Shown one piece after another: positions 3,172 through 58,062 of a stretch of 64,000 nucleotides of DNA (positions are counted from its first letter, which is position 1; each line of letters starts with the position of its first letter). Location: positions 4,336,001-4,400,000 of the forward strand of contig NC_091134.1 of assembly GCF_041381155.1 (NCBI RefSeq). Reading direction: 5' to 3'. The translations under genes and the position numbers were made by a program. The DNA comes from Argopecten irradians. Its lineage: Eukaryota > Mollusca > Bivalvia > Pectinida > Pectinidae. The notes below the pieces were generated by a model. The model was not told where the DNA came from. It searched no databases and saw nothing but the letters and a program-made list of their open reading frames with translations.

Positions 3172-3195
3172 TCACGCTTTGTTTTCGTCCGGACT
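3172..3195 (-). CDS. Neuropeptide precursor exon 8: C-terminus
   Basis: After an excellent acceptor (gtttgtctctccgcag) the phase-0 frame reads SPDENKA then TGA. The intron from exon 7 is 288 bp. The very short terminal exon is supported by the acceptor strength and by phase agreement. A minus-strand AATAAA near 2328-2333 or an ATTAAA near 2799 could serve as poly(A) signal. Confidence 0.7.
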   Translation of the reverse strand, partial: SPDENKA

Positions 3196-6100
3196 CTGCG
3201 GAGAGACAAACAAATAAAACATGCTTAGAAATGAAGCCTTCAACGATTGTTTTCACACCCATCCAATCACTCCTCTTACAATTCTAACCCATTGGAGAGA
3301 GAACAATAACCATATCGTTATGCTATCCAGTACCTTAAAATTTCACTTTTCATATCAAATGGCTTTGTTTAGTATGTTTAACATTGCATCCGAAAACACT
3401 TTATTATATAAGTAAGAAAGTATACAATGATCGAATCGCGACATATCTGAATCGAAACGGTTATCATAAATAACACTACTTACATCCAACACACAGAGTG
3501 TGAACGCAAATGGTTTCTTGACGTCCTGGTACTCCTGGAGACCGGAACAGCACTCACTGGCGGGGCATAACGCCATACCATTAATGGACTTGACACCAAA
3601 GTTACAACAACTTAGACCGTCTAAGACATCGGCCGGGAACCCAGCACCAGAACGCCCCAACCTCGGATAGCTAAACATCTGTGAGAAAAAATATCAAAGA
3701 TAAACAGTTGCTGCTGTTGGCATGGAACACTTTCATGCGGTGGGATAACCTCTTATAAAATTGCTGACTGCACCTTTAATCATTCTATACACTAAAACCT
3801 ATCGATATGGGCTGTTAAATGTGTGTTTTTGAAGAAAAAATTACTAGCCTGAGTTTTTTTAACTCGTGTTTAAAGTTCCTTGTTATCATAACTTCGTATG
3901 AACTAATTAGGTCTTGCGTTTTATTGTTTAATCGTCTTATTGCACAGTCACTATCATTTATGGCGTCTTGATGTTTGGAGGTGGAGGAACGCTGGAGTAC
4001 TCGGAGAAAAACTACTGGCTTACGGTCAGTACATGACAACTGTCCCTAGATAGCTTTTGAAACCACAATCTCCAGAGGACGAAGTCAATCAAAGGGAGAC
4101 AAGAAAACACGTTAACCACTCCTCACTAAAGCTTAACTATTCATAGTCTGAATCTTATTACTATCTGACCTTGGTTTGACGTCACAGGTGCCTATAAATC
4201 ACAATTAGTTATCTCTCCTTGGCAGGTATCCCTTGTATCCATAGATGGAAAGTCAACATAAGTCTGTGGTGTTTAATATTTCTTACCGCCTGCTGCGTTA
4301 AAACTGATTAGAAAAAGTCGTGAAGCAAAGCACAGTGATTGAGTACGATAAGTGTGTTTCTGTTGGTTTTACAGAATGGGATGTTCAGCCAACTGTTCGT
4401 AATAGCCATCCGTTATCCTTTTTGTAAACTGTGGCCATGGTTTCTCATCTAGATCAACAAACCAATTCCTAATCCTATCACAGATACATCAAAATCAAAC
4501 ATTTATATGATATGGATTTCTATTCAGATCCGTGTCGCGTGAATGCTTAATACAAACAACCCTCAGGATACATTAATATTATATATATCACTATTGCTAT
4601 TCCACTCAAACATCACAGCGATTTGCTTAATGTACAGCAGTTACTATTTCAATTAAGAGGACTTAATTATTTGAGATGTGGGTGCTAGATTGATGGCTTG
4701 CAAACATCGTCTGCTTGAAAACACACACTTAGTTTGTGTACAATCACCCGCAAAATCATAAAGAAATCAAAATGCACATCCGATTATTTATTCGGAAATT
4801 TCATATTGCCATTAATCGTTATCTTTCACGTGCCTGCTAAAACATTTACTCATGCACAATTTACATTGGTATAATGGCCGAAAAAAAAAGAATAAAAACA
4901 TGTCATTTGAAAGTGATCATGGCGGTGAGTAGCTCTCTAGAACGATAAAGGCGCGTTCGAGCAAACCAATGTCATTTATTACTCAGAGCTGATTGTTTAA
5001 ATGAGATTGTCTTCTTGTGTGATAGAAAGCACAGTCACTGCAATGTTTTAGCTAATATAAAGTTCTGATGCTTTTCTTTCCTAATCTTTAAGTCTAAGTA
5101 GCCTTCGTAATTGTACAGAGCTTAAATGTCAGATAGGAAATACTTCCTTGTTGATACATCTATTATCTTATCGATGTAAAGGTTTAGAGTGTAGCAATAA
5201 CATGAAATGAATACGAAAACACTAATGTATCTTACTCTTCTTTCATATTTTGAGTAACAAATGAGGAAGATGCGCAGAAAAGTAACAAATGAGGAAAAAA
5301 CGATTCCGCGCATTTTCTCTTTAACCATACACCTTATACTTTTGTAATTTTTCAAATTTCTATAAGAAGTTTTCCTACGGGATTGATTTGCAATTGACTT
5401 TAATATATTTGAAAATTGCTGTCATGCATTCGACCCACTCGATATAAATGATGATATCTATAGTTTCCGGGAAGGGGGCGAGAAATGGCATGTTGGGATG
5501 AATACTTGCCAATAAAGTATCTGGCCTTCTACAAAACGTCATTGCAATAACGGACTCTGAAGAGGGATTTGTCAGGAACTTATCGTTTATCAGTGATTTC
5601 TTCCACGCCCCGCGTCTTTCCTCCTAAACTTGAATAATATCATATATCAAACATCATCCAAATTCATTAGCTGATAAATGGAAACTGAAACTTACCGCAC
5701 GGGCGTCTCTAGAGAATGCCATTGGATTCTGTGAAATACAAACAATTGAATAAATGAAAAATGTAGTTATTAATGTCTAGTATATCACAACAAAAATAAA
5801 TTTCCTTGCTGGTATTGATAGGAAATTAAATGTAAGAGCTTCACTAAATGTTAGCGATATTTGTGATGGTTTGAATCTATCTAGAAAACAAGGTTAAATT
5901 AAAATACAATTGGGAGATTATATATGGAAATTAAAACAAGAAGTTATATTTAGAAATTAAGCAAATCATATCAAAGGCGTGAAGGACTAGTGTTTCCTTT
6001 CTAATCCTTAAAAATGTGTCGTAATCAAAATGAACAAAACATAATTGTACTCACACTGGATCTACCACCTCTGGGATATGCTAAAAAGTTCTAGAAAAAC

Positions 6101-9100
6101 AGAACAAAACAATCATTATTTCTATATAAATATATCGATGGATCCTATACATACAGCGGTGAAATATAGATAAACGTTTATAAAACATAATTAAACTGAT
6201 TGATACAGGTGCAGAAACAGAAATATATAAAACAAAATAACTGCTATCTCTGTTCTACAGGCGTCACACTACGGTATATTTGTCAGAATATTTCTCAATT
6301 CATACACTTTCACGAGTGCACTTATGTTAAAGTCAAATCACTACATCATTTACAATTATAATGTATAACTAAAAGTTGTATGGTCTATGCTGATGACATA
6401 AGATTTCAAGATGAAACAAGACGAGAAAGACAAAAGATTAGTCGTGTAAATATACCATAGTTTTCTACAAAATCCCTATTTGGAACAAAACTGTTCCTAT
6501 GAACTTATTACCTGTATTAGTTACTTAATAAGTATTTATGGAGTCAGAAAATAGATAAACAAGTGGAAAAAAAACATTTATAGTGTATGTTGTCAGCACA
6601 GAATTGTAATTATTTTTCAATTTCTGCAGTCATTAGCTATCAACTGTAGATCAAACCTATCACAACACTTGGGTTGATGTTGTACCTACTTTAAATAACC
6701 AAACTAACTATCTAACCAATTTGTATTTAAAAAGCATCATCCAGTATATCATTTGACAAGCTAGAAATAATAAAATATGGGCTTTGAATAACCTCAGACA
6801 TTGTCTGAAAAAAAACATTATCTCGACGAACTTGTGCTTTTGATGACTGGGGAAGAGTACATCAGATATAGGTATGCTACAAAGAAAGGTTTATCTATGT
6901 TCTTATTGGTGTTAAAAATAAAATTAATATATATATAACTCAAGACTAAATTATTTCTCATGTCCACAAAAAAAATCGATGTTCAGTAATTATGTGAACA
7001 AATAAATACTGATGTAAATTCTTCTACGGACTGAATTTGAAGACACAACATATGTTAACAATAGTGTAAGTATGATTTTAGTGACATTAAAGTATCGTCA
7101 GAAGAAGGAGGTTCTGAACGGGAAGAAAAGTTTGTGGAAGTCGACACAGAGATCTCTGCCTGTACCTGGAATAGAAGAAACGTTTGTGGAAGTCGACACA
7201 GAGATTTCTGTCTGTACCTGGAATAGAAGGACAGTGCAACTAAGGATGTATGGATTAACTACGCTGAGGATAGATTAACGGGTGCATTCATTCAGATAAA
7301 GAGGAACACAAACTTCAATGTGTTATTAAAATGAGAATTACAGAATTCACACGTGTCGAAGAACTAAGAAAGGCTAGAATGAGAAACGAACCAGATGACT
7401 TCGTGGCAATTCTGGTAAACAGCCTAAGTTCGCTTTATCACGCAGGGATAAAGAGATTTAAGTGAGGAGCGGAAGCCAGATAGAGGATGATTTCAAAACA
7501 AACCGTCTACTTTTGATTTTATACCAATTCTAAAATCTTTCTAACCGGTATTGCCTTTGCTGCGTTGTGGGCAAGAAGCTTCGTGCAGGAGGGATAAGCC
7601 GAAGTGGGTAGATGAAGAAATATCGTTGTAAACGCTAATAAGAATATAACTAATTCGTCGTCAGTGAGAAATATTAGGAATGTAATGTTTATGGTGAAAA
7701 AGAGGTTGGAAAAAATAAAAATTGTTTACTTATTTATTAGCTTTAAAGATTTTATCTTAGGTAAGGAAGCCGGGGGGAGAGTAAAACGAATAGTTTACCT
7801 TTCATTACAAGCCAGATAGTGTTACATCTGCAGTTTGTGGTTGAGAAGATTTAAGAAGTAGCAGAGCTTGCGCAGGAGAAAGAAGTCGAGAAGAGATGAA
7901 CTACATGATCTGAATCGCCCATGTTATATTACAAACCTGGTAGCGCTCCGGGTTGGCTTGTATTGCGGACGATAATAGATCTACAAACAGGTTAACATAC
8001 TGCTCCTTGAGGGCGGGGTCTATTTCCACAGCGTCAGGCCCACCGCCAACGCTATCGTTTGTCTGCTGGAAATGGCGCCAAACTCAAACAGTAAATGCAT
8101 TGTTAACGCCAAAGCAAGGGCCATTCGCTAAACTGATATGCGCAGATTTACATCACTTTCAACCAAAGTTAAAATGCAATTTATTTTTGTTATTTTTCCT
8201 ACTCCGACCCCGACATCATGCATTTCAATGGTTTCGGTGTTACATTAGATTCTATTGCACTGAAAGGTAATTTATTGTGTGTTTCTATGTAATAATATTA
8301 TATTGCCAACTACATTCAAATCAAAACATGATCAAATAGCACACATTAACACAAGTAATGATATAATTGAAAAAGTAAAACATGTTTCCAAAGCTAGACT
8401 AAACACTTGTAAGGGCTAATAGGTTAACATTGATTTTCTGTACATACAATAAAAATGTACATATGGACCAATAATTTTCATGTATTTCAATCTCGTTACT
8501 ATGTCATTGACAATGATTTTCTAATAGGACGTAATTTTATCTAATTAGAACGCCATAATCTATCATATACAATTAGCGACAAATTCACAATCAAATGATC
8601 TCCTTAATGCAATAGTTACGTACAATCTTATGGATAGTACATTTCTTTTAAGAGTTACAATAGGTCATGGAATCATGCATAACCAGAAAAGAGAAGACGT
8701 GGATATAGAAGAACACTTTTGAAATAGACAAGATTACTGAAAAAATCCATGCTTTTAGTTTTAAAAATAAGTATAACACGCAAAATATGGATCATAATTA
8801 TTTTGCTGTCAATTAACATTTTTGTATTAAAACATATCCGACGAATGAATAATTATTTGTTATTTTTGTATCATTGAGTCCTAGAAAAGAAGAAAGCAAG
8901 ACCATAGTTTCAGAGATAAAATAGGAAGAAAATCGATCTATTAAAAAGTTTGAATATTAATAAAAACAACACCAGGGCTTGATGTATAATTTTATTATCA
9001 CAGGGGGCATGGTAAAGAGTTTTACAGACATGTTAGTTCAATAGAAAAGTTGGACATGCCAGTAATTAATGAACGAATTACATAGGAAAAAATATACATA

Positions 9101-12100
9101 AATATACATGAATATATATATGTCGATAAAATATGATAAGCATTGACAGATGGAATGGTACATGGATAGATACACGAACGTGAGAGTGATATCGTCATGA
9201 AGTATGAAATGGGGAGGGGGAGGCATGGTAAGGCGATAATATGTACGCATTATAGAAATATATCATTCATAAAAATGGTGAAGTAGCTCTGAAGTCGATA
9301 TCGACCAGGGTGTATAAAAAGGGACGTTAATTTTGCGCTTGGGTGAACAGGACTTATTACGATTATATTGAATTCAATCACTCGTGGGTTTTCTGATGAC
9401 ATTGAGATTCGTTCTCCTCCGTCATCACATAAAGCAGTAGGGTTGGACAAAAGCAGATAATGCAGGAATGGGATAATGACGTCATTCTTATACCCAGAGT
9501 TCCGTTACTCCCGCGGAACGCTTCCGGCCTAAACGAGGGTGCTGCCATCCACGCCGCTGTAGTTCTAATAACTGAGTTTCACAAAAAAGTTTTCACATCT
9601 AATTAAGTGGATCTGTCTTAATATTATAAAAGGTATAACCTGTTTAACAGCGGGAAGAAATAACTGTCTTAACTACAAAAACCAGAATATTCGTGCTTTT
9701 GGTACGTTGCGCTGGTATGTATTCATATACCTAATACAAATACAACTTTTGTCGATTAACAATAGTTCTTTAAATATATTTATGTTTATTTTATTTTCTA
9801 ATAGATGTAACAATATTATAGTAAGGAGCAAAATCCAATGAAACAGTAACATTGCAAATATCTCCAACATTTCCTTTTAGAGAGTGCTTTATGCTATGTT
9901 TTGCACTTCACCTGGGTCTAAATCATTTTCTGATAGAATAATAATCAAGGACTCCTCCGAGGATAAACAAATCACGATTGTTTGACATTTGATATGTCGA
10001 TATTAAATTCAAACATATAAAGTTGCTTGGTTTCCCACTCTATCATCAAGGCATTAACGAAATTAAGCCATTTGCGAAAATGTCCGTCCGCATGAAAACC
10101 AGACATAGTACATGTATATTTTATAGAACAAAAGCACGAGACATTTTAAAGTAGATATTGTGTCTTGAGTATTGCACCACGTGCACTGTATAACAAGTAT
10201 TGTTAGAAGTGATTGAAGTAGCTTTTACTACAAATGAATACAAGATACACAAGTGATTAACAGATCGTAAGTAGACATAAAATGTATTGGTATTCGAATC
10301 ATCAGATGGTTAGTAGATTAGTTCATTGTCATGGGCATGTTAGAATTGATAGAAAGACGTAAGGATATCCGTACGCATGCGCACAAACGCGAACAACATT
10401 GTACATACCTCTTGCGAGCGTCTGCCTAATCTCGGATGCTGTCTTCCCTAAAGCAATAAATCAGCTAAAAACTGTATAAAATGTTTCTTAAAGTGCCCTG
10501 ACACCTGATCACCAATCGCTATTGAGTACGCTGATAGCGCACAAAATCACCGTACAAACATGCTTTAATGTGTCATTACTATCTATATGTGATACAGTGT
10601 GCCCAAATCAAACCCCATGCCAGTTGTGCTCATCATGCATGCTGAAGTAACAAATCTGTCGAACTCATCATTAAAAGTTCGCTAGAGTTCTAAACGGGAA
10701 TCTACTTCTGTATTACTACTACGCACTAAACAATCACTTTTAAAGCATCAAAATTGAATGATCTAAAAAAAAAAACTTAAGATGTTCTCTTCAACTGTTA
10801 AACAGTTGTCTTCTTTTCGCTCCTCTACAAACAAAATAACTTTGTACTATTGTGCTACTCATCCACACAACATTTAAGTAGATAGAGTTTACATATCAGT
10901 GCTTACCGGCGCTCTTTTCTGTCTGTCTATCGACACAGCCTGTAAGAAACAAAACAAAAATGTTTTTTATTAAAACATACCTACAACATACATGGAATTA
11001 TGATACCATTTATCTCCTATCTATTCAAAAGAACATCTTTACATATCCATATGTAATCGACGAAGTCGCTTCAATGAGGATAAAAAGATATATGAAACCA
11101 AGTAGAATCTCTCTTTACGTAACAATGTGAATGGAGCTGTTTTGACCAGTTTCTAGACTATTTCAGAAGCGAACTTCCAAATCCATTAGCAGTATTAGAT
11201 TGAAAACATATACTTAAAAATAAATGTGTAGTTATTTTTGGGATTTAGATATCGAGGAAGATCTATCAATACTGTTAGTGTAATTGATTTTGTTTCTATT
11301 AATCAATCATGGCCTCTAGGCGGGTGCGAAATGGTAACTAAAAATACACTGAATGAAAACCCATGCTTGCAATGACTATAATCCAACAAAAGAATAGTGT
11401 TCAATATTTCATTTGTTGATTTAAACACGCCATCAATGGGCAAGAATTTCTACCTTAATTACCTAACATAATTATGGAACAATTAGTGACTTAATTAGAG
11501 AGGAAGCTGTAAAATCAGGTAAAAGATAATAGGAGACCAAGTAGCAGTGCGTTCGAAAGACTCATTCCGCAGTGCGCAAGCTTGTTGTGCCTGAAATATA
11601 ATTTTTTTCTTTATGCATCCTCCATCTTGTCACATAAACAACAACAAAACAGATATGTGTGAAATGGCCACCGGATGGTGACATTTAATATTACACGAAA
11701 GATATAAACAAACAAATAAAATGTAAAACCGACGAAGACATACTAAGTATTATACATATCATACAAAGCATATTATACAAAGGAGACAATTTGTAAAAAA
11801 AAAAAAATAAAAAAAATAAAAAAAGCACGAGTGAGGGTTACTAAAACTCTATATATAAAATTATTTATAGTCGAAAATGATTGAGAACAAACGAAAATAT
11901 CCAGGAAATGTATTATCAACAAATAAAGATATAATGAAAAGAAGCTGCATTACTGTCCATCATTCCGCGTATTTGAAATCTAGCCAGTTTCTAAAGAAAA
12001 GAAAAAAGCACGTATCACCAGTCTAGTCGCTGATCGTTTAATATGCATGTCACACAAGTGAGCTTCAGTCAGATTTTCACGACACGTATTTACTAAATGT

Positions 12101-15100
12101 TTTACGGTCTAACAAAGGATGCATTGTTTTCGATGTTTATGTGACATATATCGTTGTGAGGGGCTTCTTTTATAATGTAATCAAAAGTGCTTCCGCGCTT
12201 TACTCGACTATTGCTTCGAAAAGGAAGTGGGTTAAACTTTTAATATGATTATTTCATCACTCATTGTTGTTAAGTATAGAAATGTATAATTGCTTGCCAA
12301 ACGCTTTTCATGCCATAGCAATGGCCAATAAGATTGTATTTGACATTAATATTACGGCCTATTTCACAGATTAATTGAACGGTTGAATTGATATATTATA
12401 ATTACAAATAGCATATTTAACTCAAAGTTAGTTTGGTGGTCCTGACCACATCGTTCGCTTTACTCGAATGCTTGAACAATTTCACTGTTGTCCCATCGAC
12501 CTTCTAATTAACGACGATTTAGTGTAAGATATGACAAAAAGAAAAGTTATATGACTTTTGATCGAAACGTAAGCGTTTAAACTCGACAATTAAAGCTAGA
12601 TCTGAAACATATTAGTTGGATCACATGACACATCTGTGATTTTAGAAATTTATTTAAACGTTAATTTTGATGACGAAAGAATCAGCATATACAAAGCCAA
12701 TAATGATGTAAAATTGATTATTTAATTGAACACATGCAAATCACATGCTTTTTTCCCTCTCAAGGAGTATTCTCAATTCAAACTACTTGCACAAATCTTT
12801 TCCTCGGACGTTTCTGGTAATTTTGCCTCCATTCCATAGCCAAACTATTTGCAACAAAATTAATATTCTAAAAATACGACGGCTGGGTCACGCTTTGGCT
12901 TTCAGTATGACTGTCGTATCATTTGTTATGTTAATTAGTTTTATCCAATACCAGTTAACCACGGTCATTCACAAAATGTATTACCAGATACCGGACAAGT
13001 TCCTCGGGGCAGTCTTGTCAGTCGGAAAATGTCTTAGAGAGTTGCCAAGTAGTTCCGAAATTCTTCCATTGTCAAACAACGAAGTTGGCAAAATGAGAGA
13101 GATTACTTGAAGTGTAACTATGTCCATTCAACTCATGCTCATCAGATATTCGGGAGGGATACTTAAGTGGGAGAGGTCAAAGTTGATGAAGTCTGGCATC
13201 CCACTAACTCTGTAAGGCCAGCTTTTGACGGGTGTTTGAGGGTTTATTAGCCGGGTTTTTACTCGATAATTTGAGCTTTACTTGATTGGAATTCTGGCAC
13301 GGTTACAATATTCGGACTGTTTGGAACAATGCAGTATGATAAGTGAATTATTAAATAATTACAATATCCATTTAAACAGATAAAGAACATATTCATGTCG
13401 ATCCTTGTACGACATTTTAAATAAAATTTACAAACAATTAACAAACAATCCTTTTGCGAAAACATGCATTATAGCAAAGGTCACCAAGGAAAGTAAAAGC
13501 TAATATACGTACCCGACCTACTCTGCCTTCCGGCCGGATGCGATATGTGTACTACTAGTGCACTGCCGCAGTGAATTACTTGTTGTGGGAAATTTTCTAT
13601 GCTTTTTATTTATTTCCAGTTATTTCATGCTCATGAATGCATATATGTAATTCTTCCGCAAAACTAACTTAACAATTTCTATCATACCGTTTACAACCAG
13701 TATCATTGTTGTACATTTTTCCTTAGAATTAACTGCCGTGTTCATAAGCCAAGGATATCTGACCGTTAATATGTATTACGTTGCCTGGTAGGTAAATCAC
13801 ACAAAACTAGCTGAATAAGATGTAAACAAAGGTGTAAATAGCTGGTTATTATTATCATTATATCTTGCTGCACTAACAGTAATGGACACCAGTTGTAGCT
13901 CTAAAGACGACACCATTATCTGTCTAACAATCATTTGAGCTACAATGTTTCAGCTATAATGAAACTTTACGTTATCAGCAAAACAAATTAACTGCCTTCA
14001 TAACGTCGAATTGTTACAACAAAACTTTCTATTGTCACATGATTTCTGCGGATACTACCGGCGTTCAATAGAATATAATATAACAAATATTATGTGTCTA
14101 CTTCATGACGTCGTTATGAATAAAAACTTACCTATCAGTTCATATTTTGCTTTTTATATGTTTTCTTCTCCTAAAACAACAAAGATTGGTTTCATTGTGA
14201 ACGAATCAAGGAGTCTAATAACGGTGTTGTACAAAGAAATTTAACTATTTACGGTCGCTAGACTTGTAGAAGGTGCTGATTTCCACTTCCGTCGGAAGAA
14301 ATCGATCGCAAACAAAACACCGGAAGTAATAAATTTGTAGGGTTAATAACAAGATTTTCAAGGATATTTTTTAATGTTATTGATCGTGTAACCTATCTTA
14401 ACAAGCGATTGTGTCACATGGTGAGAACAAGCTTAGACGATTGGTTATAAACAATATTAAACCTTGTTACCATTCAATCCTAACACAGATTTCACATTGT
14501 TTTAAGGAGAAATTGGCTCGAGTAGATTAACAATAACCGGCCACAGCCGATAGACGTGCTTCTTACTTTGGGAACTTAAGTAGTCATATATTATATACAT
14601 TGGCCTCGAGATCGCTTGGGAAGTGCGTTATCATTAATAAATGACTTCGATTTATTCCAGACATGTGTTTTGCAGGCCTTTCTGAATCACACTGCGGCTA
14701 TGTGTGTGCACTGGATGTCAATCTGATCACTCACGCACTTTAAGCATGTCCACCGAGCATCAATTCCTTTCAAAAATTACATTTTCTTCGAACCTTTTAT
14801 ATGATTATTGAAAAAATATTGCCGAATTAGGCAGCAAATTTGGTTAATCTCAAGAAATGGTGGAGACTTTCCACGAGAAAATACCGACACACTATTCTGT
14901 GGCATGGCAAGAAAGCCAGAACAACAGAAACATTATTTCAGTATACTCGAGTGTTATGTAGCTCTTTATTAGGGCCGTAATGAAGGATAACGAAATTGAT
15001 ACTTCAAATGAACCGATTCGTCTTTCTTTCTAAGTCTTTTCCATGTTGCTATAATACTTCGTGCCAAAACTGTAAAATATGTAACCGATTTTGACGTTTG

Positions 15101-18100
15101 CGGTAACAGATTTGACTATCCTACTATAAGTGGAAGAATCGTAACATCTCATATCGTTAATAGGCTAACCTGAAATAACTATTGATTATCAAAGGGAAAG
15201 TTAAAAAGTACGTATTTTGCAACATTTGCTGATTAAGTAAATGTATAACACGCAATGATAAATACATAAATATAAATATATAGCTTCCAGTTGTCAATCT
15301 AACTACAGATGACGTCAGCTGCCGTTCATGACATCTTTAGTTGGGTTACATCGATGCAATATATCAACTTCACCCAAGTGTGACGTCATTTGAAACAATG
15401 AGAAAAAAATATGAAAGTATTCAGATTATTCATTTAGCGGTTTTTATCGAGAAAATATCATTTTAGATACAAATATTCCTGATGAGAGCAGTGACTATAT
15501 GGACAAGGTGCAAAAAACAGATTCCCATAATCTTAAAAAATAATGTTTTATGACTTGAGGAATTTGATAATGAACTAATTTCATCGTAAAAAGTATAATT
15601 ATATTCCCTTGTCACGGATTATAATTAAATTTACCGAGCTGAAAGCTGAAAAAGAGGGAATAAAAAATTAATGTGCCTTTTCCTTTTAATCATTCTTAAA
15701 AGAGTTTTGCTGTATAAAATGTCTCGTTGTTTTCTCTCTGTACTCCCTAATTCGGACTGAGCTAAGGTGATTACGTATAAAATGCCATCCAAGTGGATGC
15801 ATTTGTCAAATTATAACCAAAACCGTGTTTTGCGTTTAAACGGTAATATTATCAATTGCTCGGGACTGAAACTATAAAGCTTTACCAAACAAAAAGGGAA
15901 TTTGTGAAATAATAATTCTCCTATACCTTCCGTTGGTGTAATGATATGTAGAACATGTTTCGTGACGTCGCGCGTTATTCAATTCGCCTGCAATCCTGGG
16001 AGAATTATAGGGCAATATATCCCCTGGGAGAATTATAGGGCCATAAATTCCCTAAGAAGGCAGTTTGATGATGAAATCGTTCTTAATAGCAAACCATTAA
16101 TTCGAGTTTTCCATATTCCATAGCGGTATGTTTGCAATCATAATGTGATAATAATCCTCATTGAATTACAAGCGTTAAATGCCTTATAATTAAATTTAAT
16201 TAATTTACAGTTTCATATAACTACAATGAATTTATTTACACTTTCATTTACCTCTTTGTGTTTTTAAGTTTGGAAATTACCTAACACACTATGCTATATG
16301 CATACAATCCTTTTATCAGTCTGTATTGTGATATGACATTAACGGTAACATCATAGTGAAGGCAATGATATGACGTTAATATCTAAAGATTGCTGAAGGA
16401 AAAATTGTTTCTGTTCATACTTGCAATGCATCTGTAAAATCTTGATTTAAATATATGTGTGATTTATAATATTTCTCATTCACAGTAAATACATAAGATA
16501 CTTTATTTAGCTCTTCGAGTCAATTTTAATTACAACTTTCATGTAATGTGTAGTCATTTATTATCCTATCTGGATTCCTATCACTCTACGCTTGGCAATG
16601 TGGCAGTGTCTACTTATCCGTCTATAAAACTAAACTAATTTCCTATGTCTATACTAGTCATATCTGAGGCACCATATTTTTCCTTTTTGTGACGACAATT
16701 AATCATGGATTGACGTATTATTGATACAGATCAGTAGGCAGACTCTAGTCGGTGGTAGATAAGTATCCACAACCGACACTAGGCGCGTCCCCAAACCTTA
16801 GCGGATCAGCCACAGACTTATGGCATTTAGTGCCTGCCTATTAAGTAAATACTGGCCATTCTGTTTGGTTCGTAACACCTTCTATCTGATTTAGACACAT
16901 CACGACCACTCCCTAAATCCTATCTGATTTAGACACATCTCGACCACCTCCTAAATCCTATCTCAGAAACCGCCCCGTAACATCTCGTGGTACTGGACAG
17001 GTTTGCTCAAAAAATGGAAATTGTTAAAGTGCAGTAGATGTCGGGGTTTGACCGACTTGATTATATATAATATATATATTATCTTTAGACTGTTTACTTC
17101 ATTACTACTGACAAATTTTACAAATAATGTAGTTGTACAACAGAGAATAATAGAAAACAGTACTTATGCACGTATATATTTGTGAATTTGCTCTATCAGA
17201 TGGTTTCATGTCAATTGGTTTTGGTCCTGAACAAAAAAGGAATTGAACATATTTCGCAAGGAGTAAAACATAACGACTGAACATCCAAATCGCTTTCTTA
17301 AGCATTTGAAATTATATGAAAAAAAAATCTTAAGTACAACATATGATTTACTAAATAAAAGACACCCCGTCAGAGAAAACAATTAATGAGATTGAAATCA
17401 ATTTTCTGACATGCTAACATCGTTTTATGGAGATGAACACACACAAATCAATCCCGATTTCTATAGAGTCATTATATCTAAAGATTAAATGGTAATTGAA
17501 ATAGATATGTTGTTGTATCCATCCTTTGACTTTTGGGGTAAAATCAAGGTTAATCATCTAGTGGAATGGTCATAATAGACATCCCGTAATTTGAACTAAT
17601 TAACTCCATACAAACATCAATATAAACAACGCGAAACGACGATGTGCGTGCACAAATAGACATTACTGATGATTTACCATGTATGCAGCTTATTATAATT
17701 CATCCGATCTCGTATTGCATGCCACATGTAGTTATTTCGAAATTGATGTCGTTTACCCTACTCTGACCTTAACTCAAAGATCTAAGTTACCAAATAACGT
17801 TTTCTGTAGGATCTAAAGTATTTTAAGATCACATTTGAATGTGTGAATATGTCATGTCTTGTCATTTCATATCAAAACTGAATCTTATGAATCCAAAGTG
17901 CAATTCTTTTCCAGAATTTGCTTTCTCTCTTCTTATGTTGACTCATACTCTCTAACAAAAAGACCTTAAACGAAAAGAAAACGAACTCTTACACACACAA
18001 GAAGGCGTTAGATTACTCCTGTCACTGGATCTTTTTGTTTGGTACTGAAGGTATCAACATAAAAAAGTAAAACGTGTCAAGGAAGGCAGATTGTGCCCAC

Positions 18101-21100
18101 GTAATTAACTAATAGTGTATATGCTGATAACATGTTTGACATAGAGATAGTTGTCAAAAAGAACACGTTTTGTATCTTGTACTGTGAAGCATATTTTATG
18201 TGACTACTAACAACTCATGGTAATGTGACATTAACAGTCTACAATACAGACGATAGATAACACTGATTTCATGTCTGGAAGCATTGCCAATTAAAAAGAA
18301 AGAGTGGAAGAAATGAGTGTAGGAAATAAATGTATTGCAATCGATTAGCTGTATAAAAATCGTGACTTATGATAAAATATCTCCAATCAGATATCGTGAT
18401 ATTCTGTTAAGAGGACGATTTTGCTATTCTACAAACACATATGAAATTTATGTCTTAATACACGGAAAGAAAATGGCATATTGTGTCTATTATTGTCAGA
18501 GGTGCGTCGATCATATGACGCTGGTGTAATATTGTATTCGGCGACGTATGTGGTGTTAATGTAATTGTGTTCTGTTGATTATATACAGACAGTTGCAGGC
18601 AAATGTATGCATTGTATTAGCAGTTACACAATTCTATTACAATCAGAGGTTATGTGGCTATTGTGTAGACGTCTTTCAAACCCCTGTCGTGGTAATACTG
18701 TATGTACAGACATGACAAATGATGGAGACTTCCACTCTGAAGTACCCCGCGTGGGGGTTTAGTTATACTGTATCTATCATTTTATCGCCATCCCAGAAAA
18801 TGATGCATTTACACTTGACATCTATAGTAATATATATGTTACCAGACTTTATTGTTTTACAGTATATGTCCGAGTTTCAGTTTACAATGTTGATTAATGA
18901 GGGACATCCAATTGACAAAAATGAAAAAATCATTCATAGAATGAAGTCACATTTATATCGATTGCATGACAACCTGTCCTGAAAATTAAATGGAAGATGC
19001 AATGATTGAAAGCATGCATAATTTACTACTTTCGTTCAATGTTACGTTACTTTGACAAACACAAAGCTATCCAGTATTAAATTGATATAGAATGGATATA
19101 GTTTTGTAGGTCGAAGCTGCCCGACCCTGCTTGACGTGACCTTTACTCTCGTAAATTCGTATGGAAATTATATCTGCCAAAGTTAAGGTTTCATATCAGA
19201 CATCATAGGTAAGGACATTTTAGCTTACGACACCGAACGGGATCAGCAACGTCATAAAGGTATCTAATGTTTAAGTTTACATTATAAACTGTAAATGTCA
19301 GAGTATGGCTGCATCTGTAGTTATATTTTAATCATGTTAAAATCACTTATCGCCATACCTCAGCGCAGTTATTTTCACTTTATCGAGTTAAAAGGAAAGT
19401 GATAAGAGCCGTTTACTAAAGGTCGAGTTAAACAGACACAATATACAGGAGTTTGCTAAACTTCGATACATTTTCTAAATTATCGAAAATCATCAATTCC
19501 AAACATTTTTATTGATACACTAACGCCTGATGGTGCTTTGTCTCATAATTTACCTGCTTTTATGTACCCAAATCCCGTTTACGGTGCATTATTTCCATAG
19601 TAATAAAATGCTTTGTCTATTTTTCCGCAATAGAAGCAAAATGTTATCTAGTGTCTTTAGACGTTGATTTATAATTCTTAATGGCGGTGCGAGTAATGAT
19701 TTGTCTTGTTGACAAGTGCTAAATTGGTAATGGTGAAAACGACAGTTTAATTCGTTAGGTTGCCATATGTAACATCCAAGAGAAACTTCAGATTTTGAAA
19801 ATGTCAGCCAGAACACTTCTAATGTTCCACCTGCGTCAAAAAGCAAGTCAACATTTTCCGCCCAGAAACATTTAAATCCGCGTTTGTTTGTTTGATTACG
19901 TCTAATAGATACTTTAACCATTCCATAGTATTACACAAACAGTTAATGACCTGGTAATTTGGTGTCGGATACAAACTTGTACTTTAATACATTAGTTTGT
20001 TAACCCAGTACTCTATGGCTGAATTAACAAATGTCATTCGGAACTATAGCTTGTCTAAAAGCAAGGGATTCGAACATCAGGCATGTTTTTTCAATGAATG
20101 TTTTGAAAAGTCAGCTGCGGTTAATGATACGTGCTTCTGTTATATAATACATACTACAATTAGCTTCGACATACGTACGTTTGCATTGATTGGTTATTCA
20201 ATAAAACATTAAAATATTCTATTAAATGGGTAATCACTCTTTATTCAAAGTTTAATTTAATTACAAAATCACTTCCGTTTCGACTAGGGTATGCAGACAG
20301 TAAAAAATCTAATTGTTCTTCAATCTCGATGATATCATTTTAATTCAGTAATGTTTTATCGTATTGCTTTTATCGAATACGATTTACAGTTTGAATTTCA
20401 AGCTTTTTTGTTTTGAACTTTGCGATTTTCTACTATCATTCACAAGCAGATTCTAACATATATTGTTACAGTAAGACGAACATACCTGATACGAAATTAT
20501 TCTTATTAGATATAAGTTCAAGTCCTTTGTTTTGGCTTCTCTTTTTTATACTTCTTTTAGAACGTATTAAGAAATTGTTTATAACGAATTATCTTTGGTA
20601 ATAAATGATGTTGAGATTCAATCAAGTCCATATTTGCTCTATGATGATTTTTTTCGGAACTTCTTTCTGAAAGAGCTGAATGTAGTCTTGTTTTAAAGTC
20701 ATCTTTGGCCAAAGAGGGGAAGCAATTGAAATAAAATCAAATAAGATCAAACAACTATACAATGTATTGTCGATAACGGACAATCTCTTAGCGAAAACGT
20801 TGTTTCTAACTTTACAATTGAAGAGTAAACTTATAGTTCCTATGTTGATCATAGGTGTAAACAGCCTATGACGTTAATTTACTTATGTTTTCGGAAACTC
20901 TATAGCTTTTCTCCTTGTCCCATGTGATTCGTTATAGTAAAAGTATTTAAATCTCTAATAGATTGAACGGCTGGGGGTACAAAAAGGCTATATTGAAATC
21001 ATTATTACTTTGTACTATGTCTATGTCAGTATAGCAGAAGAAGCGAATGTCCTGGAGAAAACTGACATTGTATTTATGGTCGTCGTTATAGTCAGAAATT

Positions 21101-23579
21101 TGGTATTGTGAATTATTTCGTTTTCATTAAAACTAATTAATTAATTGAACAAGGGATCGATTATTAATCATTTCAACTATCCCATTACAACTCTCTATAA
21201 TTACATGTGGCACAAATATCATGGTGTCAGATAGACCAACAATGAGAGAAGTATCCGAGAGATCATAGAGAGTACTTTTCAAAATTAGCGATTGTTACGT
21301 CTTATCTCCATAATAGCACTAGCAAGAACGACTAAATGTTAATTCATAAGTAATTGGTAAAAACCATATCAAGATGCACTGATTTTTGCAGTCATTCATA
21401 ATCAATCAGAAAAGGAATTTATTTTTATCGAACAATTAAATAGTGTGCTACCAATTCAGAAACCTTTGATCACTAAGGAAAGATATCAAAACAATTTGCC
21501 ATTACTTAATGTGTTATTGATATTTTTGGTAATTCAAACATCTCTATGGATCAAATATTAACTTTAAAGAACTTTAAAAAACAGATTTACTCTAATTACT
21601 AGTCACAGATGCCATGGAACACACTATAGGCAACGTGACAACTAAACCTTATAAAACAAAGCATACCCACCCTAATTCGTAAAAGCTGGTTTTTTCGGAT
21701 ATTAAGCATTTCTGAATTTTGAGATATTATTAATAGAAGATGATAATCTGTGAAGAAGATGATATTTTTGAAAATGTAAACTATTATTGATTAACATATC
21801 TCGCTGGCGTCAGTTACTGGGCAATGATATCGATATTGGTAATTGATATGTATGTTTGTTAATGCTGAAATTTAACCATCGTTTTGCCAAGCTCGTTGAT
21901 ACAATATTCCAGATAAAATTTGTATCTAATAGTGATGCACTGTGATTTACAGTCGGATTACAATTTAATCCAGATTGGTTTTCCAGTTGGTGGAGACGAT
22001 CAGCTGATAACCAAATTTATAATAGCGGGTGAGGCTCTCCTGGGTTTTCTACAGTGTGCATATGTACGGGTTATTAGTTTTAATATTTCATGGTGAACTG
22101 CAGATGATCTCATATAATACTGCTCTAAAATGCGAGAAACAGTCCATAAAGTTTGATGAATATTTGGGTATTGGAATCTTGTTTGCATGATCAAATTGAT
22201 TTTTTTAACAATAATAAATATGAAAGGTAATGCTATTGACAACTATTAGTTGATATCGTGTTGGAAAAAATAGTTCCACAAAACCTTAAATCTCAATAAG
22301 ATAATGCAATCATATGCTTCTAATGAAATTTATTCAGTCTATGCCAATTACTTAAAGACCCACTGTATTATCGAAACAAAAGTTTAAGGATAATTACTAA
22401 GCTAGATTTTCTGTAACTATAGTTTATAATGAACTTGAAACCCGAATAGATGCAGGAACCCTGCTTAAATCTATTGCTTACAACGAAGGTTCCCTGTCTT
22501 GTGTAGCGTAGTCACTGTTTCCAACCGGATGTGGGTAACTGTAGATACGCTCCATAAACATGGTACTGGTAATCAACTACGTGTACTGTGCGGTATTTAG
22601 CGGATGCCAGGAAACGTAGAAGACCCGCGTTATGAAAATTAGCATTTCTGTATCTAAAGTTGTCCAGAGGTGCTTAAGTGAAAAAATTAATAACTTTTCC
22701 GACTCTACAAAAATATCAAACTCGTTTTAGAGTTGAAATTAAAAATCAAAATCCGTTTCGGAAACATAAATTAAAACGAATCTTTAAGCATTCATGTATT
22801 TCTGCAAAGTTTCGACCGAAACAGCTGTATGCCATCAGGACAATGTAATCGTCAGCGTGAAGATGTTGAAAAACGTGTAAAATAATGACAGTTGTGTTCA
22901 CTTGCTTTAAATCGATGGATAAAAAAGCGTTAATTTGCATAATAAACCAAATGTAGCTGTGCATTGGCGTCTTAAGAATGAAAAATTAGCAAAATTAAAA
23001 ATAGGATTTTTTTTTTATTAACATTATTGCAATCATACCTTGATAAGTTGTCGAAAGCACACAATTACATAATAACATTAACGCGTATAGGCGTAATTCG
23101 TTATGGGATCGAACTTTTTTCCTTAGATACAGTTAATTATAACTACTGACGATCGTAAATCGAACTTCATTTACATTAATGATTTTTCCCAACTAAAGAG
23201 TGCTCGTTTTACTACGATCTGATAGCAGATCTTTATCGTTTTCTTTACACACTACCCAATGATAATTGTTAAGATAATGTTGGTTTTTTTTTGTAAGCCT
23301 TACTTAATTACAAGTTAAGATAATCTAGCAATCAGGAACATAAAATTGGAGCAAAACATTTTTTTTCATATATTGTCCGCGAATTTTGTCTTTTAATTCA
23401 TTAAACATATTGAATTTGCAAAAATAATGATTGTATACAATTGACAAAAACATCATCATAGTAAGATCAATAATATATGTAAGTTAGATATATGTACGTT
23501 TAAAAGCACTCACCTTTCCTTCCGTGTATAGTGAGAAAGCTACAAGTAACACACAGCCTGAGAGAAGTCCTGAAACCAT
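3172..23579 (-). CDS. sCAP/SCP-like PRXamide neuropeptide precursor, 8 coding exons (whole gene)
   Basis: Joined exons give a 184-residue secreted precursor. Residues 1-22 are a hydrophobic signal peptide. K30-R31 precedes APGRQHPRL (32-40), followed by the amide donor G41 and R42-R43. An acidic linker (44-87) follows. Then come YQNFLAYPRG (88-97, donor G98, R99), a degenerate SSNPMAFSRDAR with no amide donor, and AMFSYPRL (112-119, donor G120, R121). The C-terminal domain has six cysteines (136, 137, 150, 155, 156, 174). Every exon is bounded by a consensus acceptor and a GT donor, and all seven introns are phase 0, which is unlikely by chance. The FLAYPR/FSYPRLG-R motifs and APG...PRL resemble molluscan small cardioactive peptides, which act on heart and gut muscle; I name that family from memory of its motifs, without a search. 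Another PRXamide family is the main alternative. Intron 1 is about 12.6 kb; the others are 0.29-2.3 kb. Confidence 0.82.
3484..3678 (-). CDS. Neuropeptide precursor exon 7: FSYPRLG-R peptide plus Cys-rich domain
   Basis: The exon has 65 codons in phase 0-0. It opens MFSYPRLGRSG after a strong acceptor (ttttttctcacag), giving AMFSYPRL-amide with Ala from exon 6. The rest is a compact domain with cysteines arranged CC-x12-C-x4-CC-x17-C, including CPASECC. The donor after VLD is a perfect GTAAGT. An open frame continues through the donor, but it loses cysteines and becomes low-quality sequence, so I end the exon at the donor. The first ATG codes an internal Met, not a start. Confidence 0.85.
5696..5728 (-). 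CDS. Neuropeptide precursor exon 6: degenerate peptide copy
   Basis: The exon has 33 nt in phase 0-0 and encodes NPMAFSRDARA. The acceptor is gtatttcacag and the donor GTAAGT. Aligned with exon 5 it keeps the A-aromatic core (MAF) but reads SRDAR where the pattern is PRxGR, so both the proline and the amide-donor glycine are lost. It probably yields a non-amidated spacer fragment. Confidence 0.75.
6055..6090 (-). CDS. Neuropeptide precursor exon 5: NFLAYPRG-G-R peptide
   Basis: The exon has 36 nt in phase 0-0 and encodes NFLAYPRGGRSS. The acceptor is tgtttttctag and the donor GTGAGT. It is the copy closest to the SCP pattern (N-aromatic-LA-aromatic-PR-x-G-R). The residue before the amide donor is Gly, where Met or Leu is expected. 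Predicted product: YQNFLAYPRG-amide, with YQ from exon 4, released at single Arg residues. Confidence 0.8.
7126..7230 (+). repeat. 52-bp tandem duplication
   Basis: The block 'gtttgtggaagtcgacacag' through 'tgtacctggaatagaag' occurs twice (starts 7130 and 7182) with about three differences. It lies in intron 4 of the neuropeptide gene. Nearby open frame 7331-7465 (44 codons) is GC-richer and could be decayed retroelement sequence, but I cannot assign it. Confidence 0.8.
7937..8065 (-). CDS. Neuropeptide precursor exon 4: acidic linker
   Basis: The exon has 43 codons in phase 0-0 and runs from QTNDSVGGG to ANPERYQ. The acceptor is gccatttccag and the donor GTTTGT. The segment is Gly-rich then acidic and amphipathic (around EQYVNLFVDLLSSAIQ), with no dibasic site. 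It acts as a spacer between the first peptide and the peptide cluster. Its single Arg before YQ is the only nearby basic residue that could release the N-terminus of the exon-5 peptide. Confidence 0.78.
10409..10447 (-). CDS. Neuropeptide precursor exon 3: QHPRL-G-RR peptide
   Basis: The exon has 39 nt in phase 0-0 and encodes GRQHPRLGRRSQE. The acceptor is attgctttag and the donor GTATGT. PRLG followed by RR is a canonical amidation-plus-dibasic cleavage motif. With AP from exon 2 the predicted product is APGRQHPRL-amide. An internal GR leaves a possible alternative product QHPRL-amide, whose N-terminal Gln could cyclise. Confidence 0.8.
10907..10939 (-). CDS. Neuropeptide precursor exon 2: propeptide ending in KR site
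   Basis: The exon has 33 nt in phase 0-0 and encodes AVSIDRQKRAP. The acceptor is pyrimidine-rich (gtttcttacag) and the donor is GTAAGC. The KR pair is a prohormone-convertase site, so the last two residues, AP, open the first mature peptide, which continues in exon 3. The mature peptide is therefore split across an intron. Confidence 0.8.
13513..13551 (-). pseudogene. Decayed copy of neuropeptide exon 3 (or poorly supported extra exon)
   Basis: The stretch shares TCTGCCT...CGGATGC (plus-strand spelling) with exon 3, with one base more between the two blocks. It ends in a good GTACGT donor. Read from a TAG acceptor it is 39 nt, phase 0 and open (YTYRIRPEGRVGR), but in that frame the HPRLGR motif is lost, and the acceptor has no pyrimidine tract. 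It lies inside intron 1. A relic of exon duplication is more likely than a used exon. Confidence 0.35.
15995..16050 (+). repeat. 28-bp tandem duplication
   Basis: The sequence 'cctgggagaattatagggc' occurs at 15995 and 16023 with similar AT-rich spacers. Confidence 0.8.
16882..16963 (+). repeat. 38-bp tandem duplication
   Basis: The sequence 'ctatctgatttagacacatc' followed by 'cgaccac' and 'cctaaatc' occurs at 16882 and 16920. A truncated third start is at 16958. Confidence 0.8.
23514..23579 (-). CDS. Neuropeptide precursor exon 1: signal peptide
   Basis: The exon has 22 codons starting at the ATG (23579-23577), reading MVSGLLSGCVLLVAFSLYTE then GK. A hydrophobic core (residues 9-17, CVLLVAFSL) follows a short neutral N-terminus, typical of a secretory signal. 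The exon ends GGAAAG with a strong GTGAGT donor in phase 0. Signal cleavage probably falls just after the core, near S16-G21. I see no earlier in-frame start close by. The upstream sequence carries two CACGTG boxes and an ETS-like motif (separate entry). Confidence 0.85.
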
Positions 23580-40424: not shown

Positions 40425-43400
40425 TTATTCTGCTATAATTACATTTTCTACAGCTGTTTCTGTTATTGGTGTAGTTGGTGTTATAACTGAGTATGTTGTT
40501 TGTGATTTTGTACTTGTTGCTGTTTCTAGAATTGGTTTAGTAGGTGCTTTGACCGAGTATGTTGTTGATAATTTGTACTTGTTGTTGTTTCTATTATTGG
40601 TGTAGTTGGTGCTTTGACTGAGTATGTTGTTGATGATTTTGTACTTGTTGTTGTTGTTTCTATTATTTGGTGCTTTGTAGTGGTGCTTGACTGAGTATGT
40701 TGTTGATGATTTTGTACTTGTTGTTGTTTCTATTATTGGTGTAGTTGGTGCTTTGACTGAGTATGTTGTTGATGTGATTTTGTACTTGTTGTTGTTTCTA
40801 TTATTGGTGTAGTTGGTGCTTTGACTGAGTATGTTGTTGTTTTTGTACTTGTTGTTGTTTTCTATTATTGGTGTAGTTGGTGCTTTGACTGAGTATGTTG
40901 TTGTGATTTTGTACTTGTTGTTGTTTCTATTATTGGTGTAGTTGGTGCTTTGACTGAGTATGTTGTTTGTGATTTTGTACTTGTTGTTGTTTCTATTATT
41001 GGTGTAGTTGGTGCTTTGACTGAGTATGTTGTTTGTGATTTTGTACTTGTTGTTGTTTCTATTATTGGTGTAGTTGGTGCTTTGACTGAGTATGTTGTTG
41101 ATGATTTTGTACTTGTTGTTGTTTCTATTATTGGTGTAGTTGGTGCTTTGACTGAGTATGTTGTTGATGATTTTGTACTTGTTGTTGTTTCTATTATTGG
41201 TGTAGTTGGTGCTTTGACTGAGTATTTGTGTTGATGATTTTGTACTTGTTGTTGTTTCTATTATTGGTGTATTGTTGGTGCTTTGACTGAGTATGTTGTT
41301 TGATGATTTTGTACTTGTTGTTGTTTCTATTATTGGTGTAGTTGGTGCTTTGACTGAGTATGTTGTTTGTGATTTTGTACTTGTTGTTGTTTCTATTATT
41401 GGTGTAGTTGGTGCTTTGACTGAGTATGTTGTTTGTGATTTTGTACTTGTTGTTGTTGTTTCTATTATTGGTGTAGTTGGTGCTTTGACTGAGTATGTTT
41501 TTGATGATTTTGTACTTGTTGTTGTTTCTATTATTGTGTGTAGTTGGTGCTTTGACTGAGTATGTTGTTGATGATTTTGTACTTGTTGTTGTTTCTATTA
41601 TTGGTGTAGTTGGTGCTTTGACTGGTATGTTGTTTGTGATTTTGTACTTGTTGTTGTTTCTATTATTGGTGTAGTTGGTGCTTTGACTGAGTATGTTGTT
41701 TGTGATTTTGTACTTGTTGTTGTTTCTATTATTGGTGTAGTTGGTGCTTTGACTGAGTATGTTGTTGATGATTTTGTACTTGTTGTTGTTTCTATTATTG
41801 GTGTAGTTGGTGCTTTGACTGAGTATGTTGTTGATGATTTTGTACTTGTTGTTGTTTCTATTATTGGTGTAGTTGGTGCTTTGACTGAGTATGTTGTTGA
41901 TGATTTTGTACTTGTTGTTGTTTCTATTATTGGTGTAGTTGGTGCTTTGACTGAGTATGTTGTTGATGATTTTGTACTTGTTGTTGTTTCTATTATTGGT
42001 GTAGTTGGTGCTTTGACTGAGTATGTTGTTGATGATTTTGTACTTGTTGTTGTTTCTATTATTGGTGTAGTTGGTGCTTTGACTGAGTATGTTTGTGATT
42101 ATATTGTACTTGTTGTTGTTTCTATTATTGGTGTAGTTGGTGCTTTGACTGAGTATTGTGATGATTTGTTTGTGATTTTGTACTTGTTGTTGTTTCTATT
42201 ATTGGTGTAGTTGGTGCTTTGACTGAGTATGTTGTTTGTGATTTTGTACTTGTTGTTGTTTCTATTATTGGTGTAGTTGGTGCTTTGACTGAGTATGTTG
42301 TTGATGATTTTGTACTTGTTGTTGTTTCTATTATTGGTGTAGTTGGTGCTTTGACTGAGTATGTTGTTTGATGATTTTGTACTTGTTGTTGTTTCTATTA
42401 TTGGTGTAGTTGGTGCTTTGACTGAGTATGTGTGTGTTGATGATTTGTACTTGTTGTTGTTTCTATTATTGGTGTAGTTTGGTGCTTTGACTGAGTATGT
42501 TGTTGATGATTTTGTACTTGTTGTTGTTTCTATTATTGGTGTAGTTGGTGCTTTGACTGAGTATGTTGTTTGTGATTTTGTACTTGTTGTTGTTTCTATT
42601 ATTGGTGTAGTTGGTGCTTTGACTGAGTATGTTGTTGTTGATGATTTTGTACTTGTTGTTGTTTCTATTATTGGTGTAGTTGGTGCTTTGACTGAGTATG
42701 TTGTTTGATGATTTTGTACTTGTTGTTGTTTCTATTATTGGTGTGTAGTTGGTGCTTTGACTGAGTATGTTGTTTTGTGATTTTGTACTTGTTGTTGTTT
42801 CTATTATTGGTGTAGTTGGTGCTTTGACTGAGTATGTTGTTGATGATTTTGTACTTGTTGTTGTTTCTATTATTGGTGTAGTTGGTGCTTTGACTGAGTA
42901 TGTTGTTTGTGATTTTGTACTTGTTGTTGTTTCTATTATTGGTGTAGTTGGTGCTTTGACTGAGTATGTTGTTTGTGATTTTGTACTTGTTGTTGTTTCT
43001 ATTATTGGTGTAGTTGGTGCTTTGACTGAGTATGTTGTTGTTGATGATTTTGTACTTGTTGTTGTTTCTATTATTGGTGTAGTTGGTGCTTTTGACTGAG
43101 TATGTTTTTGATGATTTTGTACTTGTTGTTGTTTCTATTATTGGTGTAGTTGGTGCTTTGACTGAGTATGTTGTTTGTGATTTTGTACTTGTTGTTGTTT
43201 CTATTATTGATGTAGTTGGTGCTTTGACTGAGTATGTTGTTGATGATTTTGTACTTGTTGTTGTTTCTATTATTGGTGTAGTTGGTGCTTTGACTGAGTA
43301 TGTTGTTGATGATTTTGTACTTGTTGTTGTTTCTATTATTGGTGTAGTTGGTGCTTTGACTGAGTATGTTGTTTGTGATTTTGTACTTGTTGTTGTTTCT

Positions 43401-43490
43401 TTTATTGTTGTAGTTTGTGCTTTAACTGAGTAAGTTGTTGACGATTTTTTACGTGTTGTTTCTACTGCTGTTGATGTTGATACCGCTGCT
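40425..43490 (-). CDS. Frameshifted Thr/Ser/Pro-rich tandem-repeat (mucin-like) coding region
   Basis: On the minus strand the 66-bp unit encodes a 22-residue repeat, TTYSVKAPTTPIIE followed by TTTSTKSS (variant TTTSTKSQ). Entry sequence in the same frame (about 43490-43440: AAVSTSTAVETTRKKSS) and exit sequence (TPTTPITETAVENVIIAE then TAA at 40427-40425) keep the composition although they are outside the regular array, which argues for real coding. Mucin-like repeats of this kind carry O-glycans on secreted or surface proteins. Against it, one- and two-base indels break the frame in many units, so this is either a pseudogene, a non-coding minisatellite or a region with consensus errors. The plus strand is also open in one frame (hydrophobic FVLVVVSIIGVVGALTEYVV), which I regard as the shadow. 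Confidence 0.4.
40455..43445 (+). repeat. 66-bp minisatellite, ~45 units
   Basis: The unit is 'ttgtacttgttgttgtttct', 'attattggtgtagttggtgc', then 'tttgactgagtatgttgtt' and a variable 'gatgatt' or 'tgtgatt' junction. Most units are exactly 66 bp, a multiple of three. Edge units are the most diverged (around 40455-40600 and 43390-43445) and the centre is homogeneous, as expected for an array refreshed by unequal exchange. Confidence 0.97.
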
Positions 43491-43499
43491 TCTAAGAAT

Positions 43500-55834: not shown

Positions 55835-56023
55835 GTATTAAACAAAAGTTACATTAACCAGCCATACCTTTATCTGGAGTTTGTGTAAAATCTCCGATAC
55901 ATTGAACGATTAATTTATTGTACTGTGCTGTATCTGCATAAACCGACCATCATTTCCTTCGGGCCTTTTAAACTATCTCCATGCATGTTGATTATCATGT
56001 GTGCGTTAGTCATCGTCATAATT

Positions 56024-57174: not shown

Positions 57175-58062
57175 TAGGCCATGGGCTAGGAGGGTCCCAC
57201 ATGCACCCCCCCCCCAAACCTCCGAACCAATATTTTTCTTAACCCTTATGACCCACTGATTACAAATCAAAATGTTAACATTGCATAAGTTGGGATGAAC
57301 TTCCTGTTATGACGTCATCAAGATGGCCGCCATCTCGAATTTCACTAAAAAATGAAAAATAGTCATAACATTGACATTTTTTCAACCGAAGTAGACAAAA
57401 GAGGTATCAAAATGACCACAATAGAGCAATAAAAACATATCAGGACCAAATAATCAAATATATGTTGTGAATTTTACGCAAGAAGTGAAAAATAGGATTT
57501 TAAGCTCAAAAATGGAAATTTTTCAGCAAATTTTTCATATTTGTCTTCACGCAGCAAAAATGTTTCCCAACAGCAAACTATTATTTCTAATTAGTTTTTT
57601 GTCCACTTATAAATCATTTTAAACAAAAACAAAAAAAAAAAAACAATATTAACATTGTATAAGTTCCGGTAATGACGTCATTAAGATGGCCGCCATCACG
57701 AATTTCACTAAAAATGAAAAATATTCATAACATTGACATTTTTCAACTGAAGTAGACAAATAAGGTATCAAAATGACCACAATAGAACAACAAGTACATA
57801 TCAGGACCAAATAATCCAATATATGTAGCGATTTGTACGTAGGAAATGAAAAAAATAAGAATTTAAGCTCAAAAATGGTAATTTTTCAGCAAATTTTTCA
57901 TATTTGTCTTCACGCAGCAAAAATGTTTCCCAACAACAAATTATTATTCGTAATCAGTTTTTTGGTCTCTTATCAATCAATAAATCAATAAAAACACAAA
58001 CAAAAACAAAAATATATAGAAATGCAAAAGATATACTTTCATTAGTTTTACAAAACATCACC
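57175..58062 (+). repeat. Left inverted arm of the foldback element
   Basis: Two subrepeats begin near 57267 ('aatgttaacattgcataagt') and 57643 ('aatattaacattgtataagt'). Each carries a TGACGTCA followed by 'aagatggccgcc', then 'aggaccaaataat' and 'gctcaaaaatgg' blocks. A C-run at 57206-57215 lies near the tip. Confidence 0.9.

Follow-up and report, generated by a model that had tools for sequence, protein, structure and literature searches.

In molluscs, small cardioactive peptides (sCAPs) are textbook examples of peptides that modulate feeding and heartbeat. In the scallop Patinopecten yessoensis, the sCAPs APNFLAYPRG-amide and AMFSYPRL-amide were confirmed by mass spectrometry (PMC5996578; statements on this and the other articles cited below refer to parts of their text). 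The oyster sCAPs, APKYFYFPRM-amide and SAFYFPRM-amide (PMC4200219), also form a pair of PRXamide peptides, the first of which starts with AP. Precedents for peptide choice by splicing include the Lymnaea FMRFamide gene, where a single signal-peptide exon is spliced to alternative exons for different peptides (PMC4208409), exon skipping in Aplysia luqin (PMC4208409) and splice variants of mammalian tachykinin (PMC6880623). Here, we analyzed 64,000 nucleotides (nt) of Argopecten irradians DNA (assembly GCF_041381155.1, contig NC_091134.1, positions 4,336,001 to 4,400,000; hereafter the window, with its first letter as position 1), whose minus strand carries what is, judged by its predicted peptides, an sCAP gene. 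The usual mRNA most likely skips a block of in-frame microexons, making an ordinary compact sCAP precursor of 128 amino acids (aa) the main product, and the skipped block still looks coding.

A first-pass annotation had proposed a neuropeptide gene of eight exons at this locus. All eight were found in place with AG/GT borders, together with a phase-0 exon that it had overlooked (exon 3b), giving nine readable phase-0 exons on the minus strand between positions 23579 and 3172:

Exon 1, 23514 to 23579, minus strand, 66 nt: signal peptide MVSGLLSGCVLLVAFSLYTEG(K), including the start codon; gtgagt donor among the best 0.1% of GT sites.
Exon 2, 10907 to 10939, minus strand, 33 nt: AVSIDRQKR|AP, with a convertase site and Ala-Pro cap; the putative common adapter.
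Exon 3, 10409 to 10447, minus strand, 39 nt: GRQHPRLGRRSQE; candidate optional cassette exon, predicted to give APGRQHPRL-amide when joined to exon 2.
Exon 3b, 9509 to 9556, minus strand, 48 nt: RRGWQHPRLGRKRSAG; predicted GWQHPRL-amide.
Exon 4, 7937 to 8062, minus strand, 126 nt: TNDSVGGGPD...NPERYQ; candidate optional cassette exon, spacer-like and without a PRXamide.
Exon 5, 6055 to 6090, minus strand, 36 nt: NFLAYPRGGRSS; first sCAP peptide.
Exon 6, 5696 to 5728, minus strand, 33 nt: NPMAFSRDARA; spacer, cleavage site and first residue of the next peptide.
Exon 7, 3484 to 3678, minus strand, 195 nt: second sCAP peptide MFSYPRL|GR and a C-terminal region with six cysteines.
Exon 8, 3172 to 3195, minus strand, 24 nt: SPDENKA and stop; acceptor in the top 0.1%.

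The earlier view of microexons that carry single modules in phase 0 and can be skipped in frame was borne out, and phase 0 extends further than had been claimed, as all seven introns of the eight-exon join share it, the ones following exons 1 and 7 among them. In nine-exon order the introns measure 12574, 459, 852, 1446, 1846, 326, 2017 and 288 nt. Joining the eight exons gives 183 aa and a stop rather than the 184 residues first reported; all nine exons give 199 aa, and the 1-2-5-6-7-8 join gives 128 aa. Splice sites, scored with hand-entered weights, ranked in the top 0.1% (acceptor) and 0.2% (donor) for exon 2, and in the top 8.2% and 0.6% for exon 3. An alternative acceptor at 9571 would extend exon 3b (9571 to 9509) by LLELQ. 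Under the criteria used, the minus strand from 24.0 down to 6.1 kb yielded a single ATG exon with signal-like character and a phase-0 donor, exon 1. As no second signal-peptide exon with such a donor turned up there, the idea of a further gene lying within the intron was rejected at these thresholds. The gene occupies a single locus, with two genome matches (845,758,899 bases, 1508 contigs), both inside the window; a protein search with exon 4 also gave two matches inside the window, and the DNA around exon 4 matched only itself, although match counts of this kind may fall short of the true number. Between exons 4 and 5, the intron also contains a 52-bp tandem duplication (7122 to 7229) and, on the minus strand at 6793 to 6846, a stretch resembling a microexon, SSKAQVRRDNVFFQTMSE, that is open in phase 0 and has an RR site and fair splice scores but no amidation signal.

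The exon junctions point to the default product. The residues placed before NFLAYPRG are AP when exon 2 is joined to exon 5, YQ when exon 4 precedes it, and SQE or SAG after exon 3 or 3b alone, so the APN junction arises only from a 2-to-5 join that skips exons 3 and 4. AMFSYPRL likewise spans a join, combining the final A of exon 6 with the MFSYPRL that opens exon 7. Both junction peptides match those of P. yessoensis at every residue (10/10 and 8/8). As the peptides confirmed in that species need the 2-to-5 join, the default product is most likely the compact 128-aa precursor; for A. irradians itself we infer the 2-to-5 and 6-to-7 joins from this relative's peptides. The 128-aa product holds two amidated PRX peptides (APNFLAYPRG-G-R and AMFSYPRL-G-R) identical to both scallop sCAPs. 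The hydrophobicity of exon 1 (mean hydropathy of 2.7 over 10 residues) is in keeping with a signal peptide, and its length fits the 21-residue one reported for P. yessoensis. Six C-terminal cysteines, at positions 80, 81, 94, 99, 100 and 118, agree in count with the P. yessoensis precursor. Together, the junction peptides, signal peptide and cysteines uphold the original identification of a minus-strand sCAP neuropeptide gene.

The endings here, AYPRG and SYPRL, differ from the strict -AFPRM/L-amide family wording of PMC5996578; the sCAP assignment was kept because the same article files these two peptides as sCAP. Oyster sCAPs end in FPRM-amide rather than YPRG- or YPRL-amide, and no cassette is mentioned in the consulted part of that article (PMC4200219). 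Pfam searches with both products returned no families (E<=10), a PDB search gave no matches, and Rfam found nothing in the window. Pattern searches for relatives in viral_contigs and genome_contigs gave 8 and 53 matches, none of which was confirmed by tblastn.

Several lines of evidence suggest that the skipped exons are coding. The motif [YH]PR[LG]G[RKG][RKS] occurs four times on the minus strand and never on the plus strand, against a mean of 0.0 in 60 first-order resamplings of the minus strand. Three of the four sites passed a crude splice test; the exception, exon 7, has its donor farther away than the 90 nt that the test covered. When open phase-0 exons were counted with thresholds taken from the tested exons themselves, two of 120 to 240 nt scored at least as well as exon 4 (exons 4 and 7; mean 0.02 in 100 resamplings) and three of 30 to 60 nt scored at least as well as exon 3 (exons 2, 3 and 6; mean 0.07). 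GC content is well above that of the introns at 0.56, 0.69 and 0.53 for exons 3, 3b and 4, values reached by 1.49%, 0.02% and 0.30% of same-length windows in the gene span, respectively. Each of the three exons has an open phase-0 frame in which the cleavage and amidation signals are intact, and by sequence, convertase cleavage of exons 3 and 3b would leave a C-terminal PRX-amide (QHPRL-G-RR and QHPRL-G-RK), as in the PRXamide (NMU-CAPA-pyrokinin) superfamily.

QHPRLGR is common to exons 3 and 3b. Its two coding sequences differ at six of 21 nucleotide positions (seven codons), always synonymously, and residue-altering changes directly flank the stretch (R to W on the N-terminal side, R to K on the C-terminal side). 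QHPRLGR is constrained. In three simulations, six random changes left QHPRLGR intact in 94, 148 or 173 per 1,000,000 trials, figures that are not strict p-values as the stretch was picked after inspection. A genome-wide pattern covering all codon choices for QHPRLG and two basic residues gave five matches (control pattern, 0). QHPRLG followed by basic residues is encoded by just two of these, exons 3 and 3b, which lie 897 bp from each other; the other three matches read QHPSLGH, QHPRFGK and QHPRFGK, with stops around them. A recent local duplication of exons 3 and 3b was not supported, as blastn with 500-nt flanks gave only a flank-overlap stretch and matches of 16 and 11 nt. An NPY-like peptide in exon 4 was considered by eye only and dropped.

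We consider it quite probable that this sCAP gene has retained exons 3, 3b and 4 as an in-frame cassette, with 1-2-5-6-7-8 as the default splice form. Exon 2 would serve as a common adapter ending KR|AP in phase 0, and the exon chosen next would supply the body of the first peptide. By default, exon 2 would join exon 5, and cleavage after KR and at a single R, with amidation from Gly, would release APNFLAYPRG-amide and AMFSYPRL-amide. Exons 3, 3b and 4, lying between exons 2 and 5 in phase 0, could be inserted without a frameshift, and exons 5 to 8 would continue behind them in frame and unchanged. In the cassette form, APGRQHPRL-amide (or QHPRL-amide, if the inner Arg were cut) from exons 2 and 3, and GWQHPRL-amide released after RR in exon 3b, would replace APNFLAYPRG-amide, while AMFSYPRL-amide would be unaltered; YQNFLAYPRG-amide might still arise through a weak monobasic site. 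After exon 4, a lone Arg precedes the first sCAP, which implies either that this peptide is lost or changed, or that the cassette ends in a transcript of its own. The fuller proposal, that a splicing switch at exon 2 picks the PRXamide body for the Ala-Pro cap, making classical sCAP or the HPRL-amide pair (APGRQHPRL-amide and GWQHPRL-amide), probably in a restricted tissue or stage, and so two peptide signals from one locus, seems to us evenly balanced. We infer from sequence that the cassette may be spliced in, and in particular cells, and that its peptides may act on PRXamide-type receptors.

A documented 2-to-5 product with two coding-looking exons in between points to alternative splicing, loss or a separate transcript, and some observations weigh against active use of the cassette. 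Although the P. yessoensis study retained the longest isoform of each gene, the form that it describes is the APNFLAYPRG one (PMC5996578), suggesting that in the adult ganglia of that species a cassette form is rare, missing or was left unassembled; the text consulted mentions no HPRL peptide. Inclusion of exon 4 leaves one Arg before YQNFLAYPRG, a poor cleavage site. The splice sites of exon 3b are weak (acceptor top 20.8%, donor top 16.9%), and pairs scoring at least as well at 45 to 63 nt numbered seven, several nested or overlapping, against a mean of 5.35; with such pairs common by chance, splice strength alone gives exon 3b no support. Weak exon 3b sites, and the absence of the cassette from the text consulted of PMC5996578, would also be expected if exons 3, 3b and 4 were a relic, that is, ancestral exons now always skipped and decaying. 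We regard this as distinctly unlikely, given three open phase-0 exons with cleavage and amidation signals intact, their raised GC, a strong exon 3 donor and the synonymous-only changes that preserved QHPRLGR. The same commonness of 3b-like pairs (5.35 expected) would suit chance open frames in an intron, an explanation that is scarcely credible beside those synonymous changes, the excess of exon 3- and 4-like exons over resamplings and the genome-wide QHPRLG result.

If exons 1-2-3-3b-4 instead formed a separate short transcript ending in or after exon 4, the cassette would never precede exon 5 and the poor cleavage site before YQNFLAYPRG would be sidestepped. Reading past the exon 4 donor gives ...NPERYQVCNITWAIQIM and then a stop, an AATAAA lies at 7738, and the Lymnaea FMRFamide gene, with two mRNAs that have only the first exon in common, provides a precedent (PMC4208409). 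This arrangement is unlikely, though not negligibly so: the exon 4 donor is usable (top 2.6% of GT sites), AATAAA is presumably frequent by chance in DNA of 34% GC, and the 3' end of exon 4 remains in phase 0, a feature superfluous in a terminal exon. Constitutive inclusion, with the eight-exon precursor (with or without exon 3b) as the main product and P. yessoensis differing, could draw on exon 3 and 4 splice sites that lie within the range of the other exons (exon 4 acceptor top 3.0%; exon 3 donor top 0.6%). It is very unlikely, as the AP that ends exon 2 and the N that starts exon 5 form the exact APN junction confirmed by mass spectrometry, and inclusion removes the KR site before APNFLAYPRG. 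The first-pass annotation had placed exons 3 and 4, and with them YQNFLAYPRG-amide, in the main precursor; that reading was rejected because the eight-exon join cannot yield the APN junction of the confirmed scallop peptide, and the precursor it proposed is probably a minor form or not made. The same annotation had called the layout a departure from compact SCP precursors, which does not hold for the documented product, itself compact, and does hold for the skipped block of exons 3, 3b and 4, where the departure resides.

Retention of the cassette in an otherwise ordinary sCAP gene thus appears the most fitting account, and the 1-2-5-6-7-8 product agrees with the P. yessoensis precursor in both peptides, a 21-residue signal peptide and six cysteines; exon structure, cassette exons and HPRL peptides go unmentioned in the portion of that article consulted (PMC5996578). 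The Lymnaea gene belongs to the FMRFamide family, and its mRNAs share the first exon only (PMC4208409); in the present gene, both forms would have the flanking sCAP exons in common. The locust periviscerokinin-gene peptide TSSLFPHPRLamide (PMC4237046) is a PRXamide-family peptide with the same HPRL-amide end as exons 3 and 3b. It comes from an insect gene and has FP before HPRL rather than RQ or WQ; the likeness noted here is one of ending. Slug NmU/PRXamide peptides of the sCAP, pleurin and myomodulin genes share the C-terminal PRX-amide, but none given in the part of that article consulted ends in HPRL-amide (PMC7749107). Neither an sCAP gene with skipped PRXamide exons nor a molluscan HPRL-amide was found in the open-licence literature searched, mostly titles and abstract starts, without supplements. 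The other QHPRL occurrences examined were in unrelated proteins, and the remaining HPRL matches in the literature were, by title or abstract start, nearly all on antimicrobial or therapeutic peptides (nisin, apidaecins, apamin).

sCAP is a known peptide type, and the clear, testable lead lies in the two HPRL-amide modules. Molluscan precursor lists depend in large part on transcriptomes of adult ganglia; should the cassette be used, they would miss peptides concealed in skipped exons, and a splicing choice over a single exon would swap the first peptide and keep the second. If it is never used, the locus would be an ordinary sCAP gene with relic exons.

Elsewhere in the window, Pfam searches of ten open frames picked from a list of those of at least 75 aa returned no families. 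A 66-bp minisatellite of about 45 copies at 40455 to 43460 produces long open frames on both strands (a 22-residue repeat), and its piece at 42671 to 43513 on the minus strand had no Pfam match. A 7.6-kb tandem array with a 32-bp unit (also read as 96 bp) occupies 48219 to 55835, and a 363-bp unit forms a tandem pair at 57301 to 58009.

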